Source: a virus
DNA: 20,154 nucleotides
Virus record (IMG/VR): IMGVR_UViG_3300037041_002378
Location: 1-20,154 of that record
Reading direction: 5' to 3' (one strand)
Below, one piece after another: positions 222 through 19,666 of the stretch. Position 1 is the stretch's first letter. Each line of letters opens with the position of its first letter. The translations under genes were made by a program, and so were the position numbers. The notes under the pieces are model-generated. The model had not been told where the DNA came from. It saw nothing but the letters and a program-made list of their open reading frames with translations, and ran no database searches.

Positions 222-800
222 TTACCTTAGATTTAATAACTTATGTACCTGAACTCCCAGTTTCCATTCTTTACCTAATCTCTCTACTTCGTTAAGGGCG
301 CCCTCAATATTCTTGTTGTCGATTGGCTGAATGAATTTATTTTCCGCTGGAAATGAAACAAAGTCATCCGCACTAGTATCATCAAGGTAGGGATAAAGAA
401 TCTTGAGACTATGACATCTTTTAATCATAGTACGACTAGGGCTCTGTTTTGGTGATAATGAGATATGTCCAAAATAATGGATATAGTCGCATGGTATCGA
501 ACCGTTCGTCTCAAGATAAAATTCTCGAGGTGATTCACGTATCAGTGTCTGAATTATTGGTTCTAGATCATGTATCAAAGGTTCTCCTCCTGTAAATACT
601 ACAGGTAGATTATATTTTGATAAGGACTCTATGCTATCAACTATGTGACTACATTCATGATAAACAAAGTTACTATAGTTAGTATCACAAAATTGACAGT
701 GTAAATTACATCCACTCAACCTCACAAACACACATACCTCACCAGTACAGGCACCCTCTCCTTGCACCGATTTAAAAATCTCGACTACTTTATATAGCAT
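222..800 (-). CDS. queE: QueE, 7-carboxy-7-deazaguanine synthase (radical SAM)
   Basis: QueE converts 6-carboxy-5,6,7,8-tetrahydropterin to 7-carboxy-7-deazaguanine (CDG), the ring-contraction step of the 7-deazaguanine pathway. The 192-residue protein has the family start VEIFKSVQGEGACTG. It also has the radical-SAM cluster motif CNLHCQFC (C31, C35, C38, spacing CX3CX2C), which binds the 4Fe-4S cluster, and the SAM-binding TGGEPL motif near residues 70-75. It is slightly shorter than bacterial QueE. Its ATG lies inside the 3' end of queD (16-base overlap), which indicates translational coupling. With QueD, the QueC-like protein and DpdA upstream it forms a DNA-base modification cassette. Confidence 0.93.
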   Translation of the reverse strand: MLYKVVEIFKSVQGEGACTGEVCVFVRLSGCNLHCQFCDTNYSNFVYHECSHIVDSIESLSKYNLPVVFTGGEPLIHDLEPIIQTLIRESPREFYLETNGSIPCDYIHYFGHISLSPKQSPSRTMIKRCHSLKILYPYLDDTSADDFVSFPAENKFIQPIDNKNIEGALNEVERLGKEWKLGVQVHKLLNLR

Positions 801-1108
801 ACGCTATTTCCCTCGCTTTCTTGCACTTCAACTTTATAGCAATATGGAATCTGTTCACAAAGCCATCGTGCAATGTTCTCGGCTGTAGGTTGAACAATTA
901 AAGGATTAAGTTCAGAATGATCCAGTTGCATAACAATACTCTTTATAGATGCGAAATCCACAATCATACCTTCCTTATTAAGCTCCAAGGACTTGCAGTA
1001 TACAGTTATAATCCAATTATGTCCATGATACTGCTTACATTTGCTCTCATAAGGAAGGTCAAGATAATGTGCTCCTGAAATCTCAAGTCTCTTTTTTAAA
1101 TAATACAT
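785..1108 (-). CDS. queD: QueD, 6-carboxy-tetrahydropterin synthase
   Basis: QueD turns dihydroneopterin triphosphate, the product of GTP cyclohydrolase I, into 6-carboxytetrahydropterin, the substrate of QueE. The 107-residue protein has the full active-site set. The zinc-binding histidines are H14, H28 and H30 (SGAHYL and YHGHNW), the catalytic cysteine is C24 (KCKQYHGH), D63-H64 form the catalytic pair (LDHSELN), and the substrate-binding PTAEN and VQE stretches follow. An AAGGGT ribosome site stands 8 bases before the ATG, and the gap to the QueC-like gene is 24 bases. No GTP cyclohydrolase I gene is seen in the window, so the substrate probably comes from the host or from a gene outside it. 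Confidence 0.93.
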   Translation of the reverse strand: MYYLKKRLEISGAHYLDLPYESKCKQYHGHNWIITVYCKSLELNKEGMIVDFASIKSIVMQLDHSELNPLIVQPTAENIARWLCEQIPYCYKVEVQESEGNSVCYIK

Positions 1109-1132: not shown

Positions 1133-2176
1133 TTATACTAAAGGTTTTTCTGTGTTTAGTCTCAACGTATCCCCCAGTGGAGTATGCTCAGCATCACAGA
1201 CTTCATACCCTAGGTCCCTGAGCGCTATATATAAATGTCCTTGAGTAACCTTTACTGCAACTAGGCGGTTTGGAATATATCTCGGTCTAGGTAAACGTGA
1301 AAGTGCCTGTTTAATACCCCACTGTGCCCAGTCACTATCGGTATTTAAAATATTTTTACCTAATTCTTCAACACTATCAACCTTTACCACACTCAGTTTT
1401 CGTAACGGTGCAAAGTGACGAAAAACCTCAAATATTTCTCTTCCCCAGTTTCCTGTTGTATATACTACAAAGTCACTTGGTAGAGACTTTACACCCGCAA
1501 AAGTAAACAATGCAGGAATGAATTTAAACGATCTTCCCTCGCCACCATTAATATCAAACACTGTACCATGATGACCTGCATGGTACACTTCAATAAGCCC
1601 TATTAAGATCTCAGAGGATATCTTCGGAAATAGTTCCTGCACTGAGTTCAAAAAGCGTGCCCCTGTTTTATTTGTGTAGTTAATATAGTTAGTAAGCGAA
1701 GAGTGTACTAGATCTAATGGTACCCCCATATCAAGTGCTGTAGCGAGTATACCACTTTTATCTTTCAAAGACTTGACAGGATATACTAAGTCGACATTGT
1801 AGAGATTAAGTAAATCACGTACCTTAAGCAGATATTCGTAACTCGAATCAAGGTATGTTGAATCAGGTTCCGCTCCAATCACTATTTTATTATATCCATT
1901 TGTCAGAGCAAATTTTAATGCTGCGACTATGAACTGAAGATTTCTCACCGGGATTTCATGCAATGTATTACCATCTCCTACCTCTAAAGTCTGTACTATA
2001 TGAGGAACATTCCAATTTCTACAAAGCGTTGCTGCCTTTTTCAATTCTTCTGCATTAAGCTGACCATAGGAAAATGACAGAGCGAGTATCTCTTCATTTT
2101 CTCTGTTGTCAACTTCTAATGCCAAGCATGTTGCACTATCTAGCCCTCCTGAAAATAGTACTATAGTTCTTTTCAT
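1133..2176 (-). CDS. queC: Divergent QueC-like ATP-dependent ligase with a C-terminal extension
   Basis: The first ~160 residues follow QueC: a PP-loop SGGLDSAT (residues 9-16) for adenylation, FSYGQLNAEEL (35-45), PVRN (76-79), and a GAEPDSTYLDSSY stretch at the place of the family G-x(3)-D-x-sgY-PDCR region. Canonical QueC uses ATP and ammonia to turn CDG into preQ0 and holds a structural zinc with a SCY plus CGxCxxC set. Here the SCY position reads HSSLTNY (158-164) and no cysteine cluster follows. The only cysteines are C17, C52 and about C327. The protein is 347 residues against roughly 220-230 for the family, and the last ~165 residues match nothing I recognise. It may make preQ0, an amide, or act on CDG differently. 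An AGGAGG ribosome site precedes the ATG and forms part of a 14-bp palindrome at 2188-2201. Confidence 0.8.
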   Translation of the reverse strand: MKRTIVLFSGGLDSATCLALEVDNRENEEILALSFSYGQLNAEELKKAATLCRNWNVPHIVQTLEVGDGNTLHEIPVRNLQFIVAALKFALTNGYNKIVIGAEPDSTYLDSSYEYLLKVRDLLNLYNVDLVYPVKSLKDKSGILATALDMGVPLDLVHSSLTNYINYTNKTGARFLNSVQELFPKISSEILIGLIEVYHAGHHGTVFDINGGEGRSFKFIPALFTFAGVKSLPSDFVVYTTGNWGREIFEVFRHFAPLRKLSVVKVDSVEELGKNILNTDSDWAQWGIKQALSRLPRPRYIPNRLVAVKVTQGHLYIALRDLGYEVCDAEHTPLGDTLRLNTEKPLV

Positions 2177-2179
2177 AGT

Positions 2180-3028
2180 TTATCCCTCCTTTTTAAAAAG
2201 GTCAATTGATTTACCTTTGATAAAATATTGATAGCATGCATATAGTACATCTATATGCTCAGCACTAGAAACTACTAAATACATTTGCACTCCTTGTTCT
2301 TCAAGTTTTTGTACCTGATATAAAAATGCCGCGCAGGTAGTTGCAAAAGGAACAGATATACCTAGATATTTCCCCTTTGTATGTCGCCATTCTGGATCAT
2401 TTAGTTTGTCATAATCCTTCTCTTGAAATCCAAACTTTTTAACTGACGAGAATCCTATTTTTGCCTCATTGTGATAATTATAATCCTTCCTTCTAAGCTC
2501 ACCATATTTTGTGCCGTTTAACCAAGTTGAATTATCACAGGATCGAGGCTTGTAGTACCAAAGAAGATTAACATCAGAATAGGCAAAAAGATGAATCTTT
2601 GAAGTATCAATACAACTTTCTAGTAACCATCGTACATATTGCTTTTTCTTTCGTACCCCACCACACCCCACATACTCATGATGCTTAACTAATGAATTTA
2701 GTAAATTAATCTGATCACTATATTCTGCATAGGTAAATATTGGAATTACGTTTGATCCGAGACGTTCATGTATCTTAAAGTTCTTACTAGTCTGCTCCTG
2801 GTCATAAATCTTATCTAACTGAAAGGCGCCATCATACTGTACCTTTGGATCGAATGATTTTAACCAGTCACAGTATTCTTCAATACTAATAACCTTTCCT
2901 AATGTCAGCGCAGAATATGCTCCGGAATCAATTATAATCCGAAAACTATCAGAATAGAGATTTATCCGATCTAATACTTTTTCAGATTTACGTAACACAT
3001 AATACGAAAGCAACACGGGTATCTTCAT
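2180..3028 (-). CDS. dpdA: DpdA-like DNA guanine transglycosylase
   Basis: This looks like a phage member of the tRNA-guanine transglycosylase superfamily, which exchanges guanine in DNA for a 7-deazaguanine base. The 282 residues carry DSGAYS (34-39) at the place of the DSGG motif of TGT, where the Asp acts in base exchange. GCGGV (121-125) matches the base-recognition glycine loop. CDNSTW (164-169) resembles the DpdA nucleophile region, with D165 as the likely nucleophile. The TGT C-terminal zinc site is absent, as is usual for DpdA. The gene overlaps the ParB-like gene by ATGA and is followed 3 bases later by the QueC-like gene. The assignment rests on motifs plus the adjacent queC/D/E genes. 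The DpdA subfamily cannot be decided here. Confidence 0.82.
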   Translation of the reverse strand: MKIPVLLSYYVLRKSEKVLDRINLYSDSFRIIIDSGAYSALTLGKVISIEEYCDWLKSFDPKVQYDGAFQLDKIYDQEQTSKNFKIHERLGSNVIPIFTYAEYSDQINLLNSLVKHHEYVGCGGVRKKKQYVRWLLESCIDTSKIHLFAYSDVNLLWYYKPRSCDNSTWLNGTKYGELRRKDYNYHNEAKIGFSSVKKFGFQEKDYDKLNDPEWRHTKGKYLGISVPFATTCAAFLYQVQKLEEQGVQMYLVVSSAEHIDVLYACYQYFIKGKSIDLFKKEG

Positions 3029-3621
3029 CTTTGCACCTCAATATTTTTTATTCCCGACGCATTAATCCACTTTTCAAGCATCTCAATAATACTCTCTCTT
3101 GACGAGTGATCAACTATTAGTACTACAATCTTAGCCTTAAGAGTGCTATAAACAGCATTTATTTTCTTTATCTTTTCCATATCAAATCCCATTTTCATCA
3201 GATTTACTTCTTCTGCACTAAACGCAACATCCGCTTTTATTTCGTCAACCTCAAGTAACTCTGATAGCATTTTTTCATCCCATTCCGACCATTCACCCGA
3301 CAAGTTATCGTCAAGAGCATAGGCTGTCGCTGCTGCCTCACTTTTAAATTGTACAAATTTAACTTCCACCTCTGTTGCACCAATTAGCTTTAAAGCTTTC
3401 CATGTAGTATTCCCTTTATAAATTGTATTGTTCTTAACCCATACTATCAAGGGAGAAATCTGTCCATGTCTTTTGAGTACTTCCGCTAGTTTTGGGATTG
3501 CACCTTCATTATTTCTCGGATTTTTCTTCCATGGTTTTACAGAATCAATCGGAACTATCTTCGTTGTCCCTCTTCCAATAGTATAATGCTGTAACTTCTT
3601 ATCACTGCGCTCTTGTTTCAT
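3025..3621 (-). CDS. ParB-fold (ParB/sulfiredoxin) protein, possible DpdB-like partner of DpdA
   Basis: Residues ~20-115 have the ParB N-terminal layout: IVPIDSVKPWKKNPRN, then a helix ending in GQISPLIV (53-60), then IYKGNTTWKA, where ParB has the GERRxRA nucleotide-binding box, and KVKF-type strands. This fold occurs in CTPases, nucleases and modification proteins. In the bacterial Dpd system the DpdB protein also carries a ParB-type domain and is needed for base insertion with DpdA, so a partner role is reasonable but inferred. The ATG directly follows the primase-helicase TAG, with AGGAG 7 bases upstream. The stop overlaps the dpdA start (ATGA), which implies coupled translation. The C-terminal ~80 residues have no recognised motif. 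Confidence 0.75.
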   Translation of the reverse strand: MKQERSDKKLQHYTIGRGTTKIVPIDSVKPWKKNPRNNEGAIPKLAEVLKRHGQISPLIVWVKNNTIYKGNTTWKALKLIGATEVEVKFVQFKSEAAATAYALDDNLSGEWSEWDEKMLSELLEVDEIKADVAFSAEEVNLMKMGFDMEKIKKINAVYSTLKAKIVVLIVDHSSRESIIEMLEKWINASGIKNIEVQR

Positions 3622-18370: not shown

Positions 18371-19666
18371 TTATTTCCAATCTGGCTCAACAGGAAAAAT
18401 AATCTTTGTTAGGCCTAGTCCTTCTTGAAACTTTGATATAAAATTAGCCGTCAAGACCTTGTCAGATTGAACATTCAGATCAGTGCGTGATGGCGTTGTA
18501 AGTCCATCTGACCAGTTAAGGAAGTAATACCCGGTGTTGGGCACTGCCGTTACTTGTGAGCCATTATTCCCTTGAATCACTGTCTGAGATGTGTTTCCGG
18601 TGAGAGTCCCGCCAGCACCGGCAATGTATGTGAGTGTATATGTTATAAGTGTAAAATTAGCCGTTACAGTTTTGTCGCCTGTGACATTTAGATCGGTGCG
18701 GGCTGCGGTCAATACTCCGTCTGACCAAGATGAAAAGGCACATCCAGGGTTAGGTACTGCCACAACTTGTGAACCAGAATAATTAAAAAGATATGCTGTT
18801 TGATTGAGTATTCCAGTTATAGAACCATTTAATCCTGGGATATACGTAAGATGAAAATGTGGAACATCACATTGTCCATCGCTATTATATCCCCAAGCGA
18901 CAACAGTTCCATCACTCTTCAATGCCAATGAATGATAACTTGCTCCTGAAATTTCAATAACACCAGTTAATCCTACAGGAACATCACATTGTCCATTGTT
19001 ATTTCTTCCCCAAGCGACAACAGTCCCGTCACTCTTCAAAGCCAATGAATGATAACCTGCTCCTGAAATTTCAATAACACCAGTTAATCCTATGGGAATA
19101 TCACATTGACCATCGCTATTATCTCCCCAAGCAACAACCGTCCCGTCACTCTTCAATGCTAGTGAGTGAAACCAACCTCCTGAAATTTCAATAACACCAG
19201 TTAATCCTACAGGAATATCACATTGACCACTACCATTTGTTCCCCAAGCGACAACAGTCCCGTCACTCTTCAATGCTAAAGAGTGACTATATCCTCCTGA
19301 AACTGCAATGACACCAGTTAATCCTATGGGAACATCACATTGTCCATTATCATTCTTACCCCATGCAACTACAGTGTTATCACTCTTCAAAGCCAATGAA
19401 TGATAACCTGCTCCTGAAATTTCAATAACACCAGTTAATCCTACAGGAACATCACATTGTCCATTGTTATTTCTTCCCCAAGCGACAACAGTCCCGTCAC
19501 TCTTCAATGCTAAAGAGAAAGCCCCTCCTCCTGAAACTGCAATAACATTAATTAATCCCACAGGAATAGTACATTGGCCAAAGGCATTATGTCCCCAGGC
19601 GACCACAGTCCCGTCACCATTCAATCCAATACTATGAGCGCCACCAGCACCTATTTTTAATGCCAT
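18371..19666 (-). CDS. Tail protein with seven RCC1 repeats and two InlB-type repeats, candidate receptor-binding protein
   Basis: Residues 1-271 are seven copies of a 39-residue unit with the core SLALKSDGTVVAWGxNxxGQ followed by CDVPxGLTG. Seven such units should close into a seven-bladed RCC1-type propeller. Residues ~272-341 and ~342-413 are two copies of an InlB B-repeat-like domain (Y.AG..G.LTG, then GSQVxAVPNxG, then FxxWSDG and TxNF). The rest is a short tail ending VEPDWK. It stands inside the tail operon where an adhesin or fibre is expected. The unit-to-unit variation sits in two loops, which fits binding of a receptor. AGGG lies 6 bases before the ATG. Binding itself is inferred. 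Confidence 0.75.
   Translation of the reverse strand: MALKIGAGGAHSIGLNGDGTVVAWGHNAFGQCTIPVGLINVIAVSGGGAFSLALKSDGTVVAWGRNNNGQCDVPVGLTGVIEISGAGYHSLALKSDNTVVAWGKNDNGQCDVPIGLTGVIAVSGGYSHSLALKSDGTVVAWGTNGSGQCDIPVGLTGVIEISGGWFHSLALKSDGTVVAWGDNSDGQCDIPIGLTGVIEISGAGYHSLALKSDGTVVAWGRNNNGQCDVPVGLTGVIEISGASYHSLALKSDGTVVAWGYNSDGQCDVPHFHLTYIPGLNGSITGILNQTAYLFNYSGSQVVAVPNPGCAFSSWSDGVLTAARTDLNVTGDKTVTANFTLITYTLTYIAGAGGTLTGNTSQTVIQGNNGSQVTAVPNTGYYFLNWSDGLTTPSRTDLNVQSDKVLTANFISKFQEGLGLTKIIFPVEPDWK
18428..18853 (-). repeat. Two InlB B-type repeats (coding repeat)
   Basis: Two ~70-residue copies share GSQV.AVPN.G, F..WSDG, RTDLNV and K..TANF, at residues ~272-341 and ~342-413 of the RCC1 protein. The second copy has more Thr and Asn. 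Such domains are beta-sandwich spacers in surface adhesins. They probably present the propeller to the host surface. Confidence 0.7.
18854..19666 (-). repeat. Seven 117-bp RCC1 repeats
   Basis: The units are 117 bases each, except the slightly longer first and shorter last one. A block of about 130 bases at 18912-19042 repeats almost exactly at 19380-19510, a shift of 468 bases or four units. This points to recent duplication or gene conversion within the gene. Confidence 0.8.

Follow-up and report, generated by a model that had tools for sequence, protein, structure and literature searches.

The window analysed here is the whole stretch of DNA, 20,154 nucleotides in length, that makes up positions 1 to 20,154 of IMG/VR virus record IMGVR_UViG_3300037041_002378. 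Its minus strand encodes, in order, a ParB-like protein, DpdA, the QueC-like protein P0001, QueD, and QueE:

3025..3621, minus strand: ParB-like protein, overlapping the start of dpdA (PF02195, E 6e-5, below the Pfam cut-off; PHROG)
2180..3028, minus strand: DpdA-like DNA transglycosylase (phrog_887, E 9e-25)
1133..2176, minus strand: P0001, a QueC-like protein of 347 amino acids (open reading frame and translation, PF06508, phrog_1550)
785..1108, minus strand: QueD-like CPH4 synthase of 107 amino acids (PF01242, E 5.7e-21)
222..800, minus strand: QueE-like radical SAM CDG synthase (TIGR04508, E 2.8e-25, below the cut-off)

These genes constitute a DNA 7-deazaguanine modification cassette. The DpdA-like protein retains DSGAYS and the aspartate of SCDNSTW, the QueD-like protein retains its Cys, HGHN, DH, and E residues, and the QueE-like protein retains CNLHCQFC (CxxxCxxC) and GGEPL. 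P0001 is directly followed by queD and queE, the arrangement sought for a canonical QueC. FolE is absent within the window, which ends 221 bases past queE. Arthrobacter phage Sonali has the identical order ParB-DpdA-QueC-QueD-QueE, followed by FolE. The order in mycobacteriophage StAugustine is nearly the same (a DnaQ-like gene lies between ParB and DpdA, and QueC is longer), and Cellulophaga phi38:2 carries a related set in the order DpdA, ParB, QueC, QueD, QueE. The window's ParB-like protein matches several PHROG ParB-like families (best ParB-named family, E 4e-24). ParB-like genes are also found near dpdA in Sonali, StAugustine, and phi38:2, and this recurrent proximity suggests that the ParB-like protein and DpdA share a role.

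The P0001 gene starts with ATG and is preceded by a strong ribosome-binding site (AAGGAGG). P0001 is a member of the PF06508 (QueC) superfamily, scoring 76.3 bits (E 3.2e-21) against a Pfam gathering cut-off of 22, and it matches phrog_1550, a phage QueC-like family, with an E value of 2.5e-18; the QueC-like assignment made in an earlier note on this DNA is thus confirmed. Against the TIGR00364 QueC equivalog model, P0001 scores 63.9 bits, compared to an NCBIfam cut-off of 150.3. As it falls short of this score and also lacks the zinc motif (discussed below), we file P0001 as a QueC-type variant rather than as QueC proper. The in-frame codon score is 0.214 for residues 166-347 and 0.216 for residues 1-165, resembling other genes; the other two frames give negative scores and contain no missing cysteine motif. 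The C-terminal extra part is therefore real coding sequence, and these scores rule out a hidden frameshift masking a cysteine cluster. Viral contigs scanned with the complete P0001 sequence, DpdA, QueE, DNA polymerase, or the C-terminal part yielded no close relative, and neither did genome contigs scanned with the C-terminal part.

Active-site motifs were compared with those of 126 QueC sequences, nearly all of which are from phage and viral records:

2135..2152, minus strand: SGGLDS pyrophosphate loop, residues 9-14 (identical in all comparators)
2045..2068, minus strand: YGQLNAEE, residues 37-44, the YxQxHxxE motif with H changed to N at N41 (comparator alignment)
1940..1954, minus strand: IPVRN, residues 75-79, the VPxRN motif (comparator alignment, PMC13329287)
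1844..1855, minus strand: YLDS, residues 108-111, the YPDC motif with its CDG-binding Y and D kept and C changed to S at S111 (alignments, PMC13279940)

P0001 keeps the invariant or nearly invariant residues S9, G10, G11, D13, S14, Y37, E44, R78, N79, Y108, D110, P133, and K140, which include every residue looked for in a canonical QueC (SGGxDS, the Y of YxQxHxxE as defined in PMC13329287, the R of VPxRN, the Y/D of YPDC, and the K). Conservation of SGGxDS and of the YGQ region is partly by construction, as retrieval of the comparators relied in part on both; R78, N79, D110, P133, and K140 played no part in it. R78 and N79 are present in 99% of comparators, and the earlier finding that the PP-loop and RN motifs are kept holds. 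In E. coli QueC, the residues corresponding to Y37 and R78 are essential (PMC13329287). The Cap9 structure shows the YxD tyrosine and aspartate stacking on and reading the 7-deazaguanine; the same pair occurs in B. subtilis QueC and is replaced by threonines in QatC (PMC13279940). The SxL pocket loop, which most comparators have, is absent from P0001 between residues 64 and 73. With its ATP- and CDG-linked residues retained, P0001 looks, judging from its sequence, as though it is built for CDG.

P0001 also departs from the canonical pattern in the zinc region:

1685..1705, minus strand: HSSLTNY, residues 158-164, occupying the position of the first zinc cysteine, in ambiguous register (alignments)
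1499..1696, minus strand: residues 161-226, mostly helical in the model, located where QueC has its zinc lobe and containing HAGHH at 199-203 (model, alignment A5)

As previously noted, there is no zinc cysteine cluster: the chain contains just three cysteines (C17, C52, and C329), CxxCxxC occurs nowhere in it, and the canonical C(x)8CxxCxxC is missing. The SCY region had been read as HSSLTNY, which is correct as to the letters, but its register can be drawn in two ways. Aligned to short QueCs such as L056, the (S/T)CY site lands on S160 (HSSL); aligned to long QueCs (RHETLTCYNG), it falls without gaps onto LTNYIN and would retain the tyrosine as Y164. This tyrosine is essential in E. coli QueC (PMC13329287). 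Alignment A5 sets HAGHHGTV on CGxCGTC, with R after it, and two other alignments put the lobe elsewhere; HAGHH is a possible candidate for an alternative metal site.

Loss of the zinc cysteines is not peculiar to P0001. At least two further groups of phage QueCs lack them: one with the pattern TDYNG...DNPAS (L055, L080, L096, L119, L143) and one with SHTAYDG...TGKDHA (Rhizobium RHph_Y55, Stenotrophomonas ply2008005c, Microcystis Me-ZS1, and L087, with L072 similar). All four cysteine-less QueCs that were scored with TIGR00364 exceed its cut-off of 150.3:

L055:3989-4663, 220 bits
L119:4965-5663, 199 bits
L087:3977-4747, 187 bits
L012:2929-3774, 154 bits

FolE, QueD, QueE, and DpdA adjoin most of the cysteine-less QueC loci (the neighbourhoods of L077, L096, and L119 end at contig ends); none of the four is present in the available stretch of L072. 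In a poorly resolved tree built by a quick method, the cysteine-less label requires four changes, at least two of them on well supported branches; L052 was scored cysteine-less by a crude pattern and in reality has an insertion inside its CxxC motif. P0001 sits on a long branch of unsure placement and does not group with these proteins. Like P0001, they have lost the zinc cysteines and lie nearly all in a DNA-modification cassette; unlike P0001, they have YPDC and the SxL loop with few exceptions and are closer to QueC, and their tails show no similarity to that of P0001.

Zinc loss is thus recurrent in phage QueCs, and by itself it is no sign of another product. Nor does it predict the amide: Campylobacter phage CP220 has been reported to carry dADG at 100% of dG (PMC8306585), and its QueC retains all zinc cysteines and the SCY motif, and on this ground we rejected zinc loss as an indicator that the amide is made. 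The earlier proposal that a missing zinc site implies other chemistry is not supported, given CP220, the cysteine-less QueCs that score above the cut-off in FolE-QueD-QueE-DpdA cassettes, and the fact that P0001 still has the substrate Y/D pair along with the invariant R, N, P, and K residues. P0001 and the other phage QueCs without the cysteines make it possible to test whether the zinc site is important for catalysis at all.

An AlphaFold model of P0001 from the single sequence was poor (pLDDT 42). With 54 aligned sequences, residues 1-160 are predicted with confidence (pLDDT mostly above 85), helices at 170-182, 188-202, and 215-226 have moderate pLDDT, and confidence is low at 201-216:

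1697..2176, minus strand: QueC core, residues 1-160, PP-loop ATP pyrophosphatase fold (AlphaFold and structural matches)
1136..1498, minus strand: orphan C-terminal part, residues 227-347 (no relative found; pLDDT mostly under 60)

The best solved structural match is Cap9 (9nto_B, Z 21.8, rmsd 2.3, 172 residues), followed by B. subtilis QueC (3bl5_A, Z 19.9) and Erwinia QueC (Z 18.4). The structure prediction and structural search that had been proposed therefore place the core with Cap9 and QueC; for approximately residues 227-347, where the model is poor, we claim no fold, which does not imply that the fold is new. The roughly 165 extra residues had been described as matchless, and no sequence match was found. 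As the model superposes on QueC up to residue ~226, however, the strictly orphan stretch is nearer 120 residues.

Even with the E value relaxed to 10, neither Pfam nor PHROG offers a match to the extra C-terminal part. Searches of phages, plasmids, viral and genome contigs, and PDB sequences gave nothing significant, and the same part is in none of 146 QueC loci from two profile scans. A search of 50 QueC-locus records returned one weak match (E 0.004, 28% over 91 residues), which we read as chance. A match of residues ~180-216 to Photorhabdus methyltransferases among PDB sequences (glycine motif VFDINGGEG, E 0.07) was likewise weak and discounted as evidence.

With respect to known QueC-type systems, P0001 shares with QueC (PDB 3bl5, 2pg3) the fold, SGGxDS, YxQ...E, VPxRN (as IPVRN), the Y/D of YPDC, the K, and the place in the pathway. 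It differs in lacking C(x)8CxxCxxC and the SxL loop, in having YLDS for YPDC and N for H, in its ~120-residue C-terminal extension, and in its low TIGR00364 score. Cap9 of type IV CBASS (PDB 9nto) resembles P0001 in its compact core and 7-deazaguanine Y/D pair, but has zinc cysteines, YxQ(x)5E spacing, and a CD-NTase partner, whereas P0001 partners DpdA, QueD, and QueE. Neither of the Cap9 motifs YxQ(x)5E and H(x)4YxDC (PMC13329287) is present: E44 lies at Q+5, the spacing of QueC, and residue 103, where Cap9 has its H, is E. The genes next to P0001 are those for DpdA and QueD, and scanning of the window proteins revealed no CD-NTase. QatC of qatABCD also combines a QueC core with an extension, but keeps its zinc cysteines and has T/T in place of Y/D; P0001 has Y108 and D110 and no cysteine motif, in contrast to the T/T and C(x)19CGxCxxRR looked for in a QatC. 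Assignment as Cap9 or as QatC is rejected on these features. Gat-QueC (phage 9g and relatives) has a QueC core, an extra domain, and a DpdA cassette, but that domain is an N-terminal class II glutamine amidotransferase, and the extra part of P0001 is C-terminal and unrelated to it in sequence. With only 8 residues preceding SGGLDS, P0001 has no N-terminal domain and is not a Gat-QueC. The Gat-QueC of phage 9g failed to complement an E. coli queC deletion strain (PMC6884629).

P0001 is most likely an enzyme that makes a modified base for phage DNA. We consider it reasonably probable that it is a divergent, CDG-activating QueC-type enzyme feeding DpdA, with preQ0 a likelier product than the amide. 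ATP would be bound through SGGLDS, and CDG (7-carboxy-7-deazaguanine) would be supplied by the neighbouring QueD and QueE. Activation of the CDG carboxylate and attack by ammonia would give 7-amido-7-deazaguanine, and a second ATP-dependent round would, most likely, yield 7-cyano-7-deazaguanine (preQ0). DpdA would then replace guanine in phage DNA with this product, probably conferring protection from restriction; a minimal set with QueC yields dPreQ0 in phages (PMC6884629). The helical lobe without cysteines would stand in for the zinc ribbon, and the ~120 added C-terminal residues possibly serve stability, ammonia delivery, or DpdA contact. P0001 would then illustrate drift of the QueC scaffold in phages with catalytic residues retained. 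Against this reading stand the TIGR00364 score, the lost SxL loop, the C to S and H to N changes in YPDC and YxQxHxxE, the tyrosine that follows the first zinc cysteine (kept in only one of the two possible alignments), the absence of FolE from the window, and the fact that the searches gave no relative sharing the C-terminal part.

As for the product, preQ0 ranks as the more likely, ahead of ADG, and conjugation to another acceptor comes third. Halting at an amide, or use of another acceptor, as suggested earlier, is possible, yet nothing here favours either. The same enzyme could stop after the first round, the amide ADG being inserted as dADG. Such DNA has been reported for CP220, and the altered pocket (the lost SxL loop and the C to S change) could hinder a second round; that phage's zinc-bearing QueC, however, shows that the amide does not follow from zinc loss, and no residue identified here separates amide from nitrile formation. 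We think this outcome unlikely. A separate question, compatible with either product, is whether an insertion of ~35 residues was followed by rebuilding of the metal site from H199, H202, H203, and perhaps H158, P0001 then being a long-branch ordinary QueC. The A5 placement of HAGHHGTV and the wider C(x)19C spacing of QatC (PMC13329287) are consistent with such a site, but the alignment is weak here, two others disagree, and the model has low confidence at 201-216; we hold the idea tentatively, as somewhat doubtful.

Departures from the free-base pathway fare less well. In a Cap9-like conjugation, the C-terminal part would select a protein or small molecule, and activated CDG would be joined to an amine of that acceptor. 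Cap9 is the closest solved fold (ahead of QueC, at 19.9), the compact core of P0001 scores 62.5 bits over 2-160 of the PADLOC QueC profile, about the same as with TIGR00364 (the other phage QueCs scored favour TIGR00364 over the PADLOC profile), and QatC binds its partner through N- and C-terminal extensions (PMC13279940). The Cap9 spacing, histidine, and zinc motif are nevertheless all absent, the window proteins scanned include no CD-NTase, no cassette protein begins Met-Gly, and the neighbouring genes are for free-base synthesis and DNA insertion, which makes this very unlikely. It is scarcely more credible that the rebuilt pocket and unique C-terminal domain pass activated CDG to an acceptor other than ammonia, or alter it otherwise, such that DpdA inserts an undescribed 7-deazaguanine or the base ends up on a protein; if the C-terminal part does redirect the activated base, it would point to a new DNA base. 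DpdL is a CDG decarboxylase, and the earlier note was right to refrain from assigning P0001 to it; the decarboxylation also raised in that note finds no support here. That P0001 is a non-catalytic relic or a scaffold for DpdA would explain why the pocket loop and the cysteine of YPDC are missing along with the zinc cysteines, but the known ATP and CDG residues are retained and the coding bias is normal, and we regard this as highly improbable.

Three other loci were encountered in passing. In Bacteroides phage BS162P1 (L011:5202-6828), unannotated QueC-like and DpdA-like genes are adjacent, with a QueE-like gene downstream; this QueC-like protein is very divergent, keeping the zinc cysteines and lacking the YGQ motif. 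At L057:3950-5050, a phage QueC frame carries an in-frame insertion of ~125 residues shortly past the YFDC region, beginning SLTPEWIAGFIDGEGSF; this insertion resembles a LAGLIDADG-type homing endonuclease or an intein. Within the window, at 18371-19666 on the minus strand, a protein that contains divergent InlB B-repeats as well as seven RCC1 repeats adjoins the tail genes.
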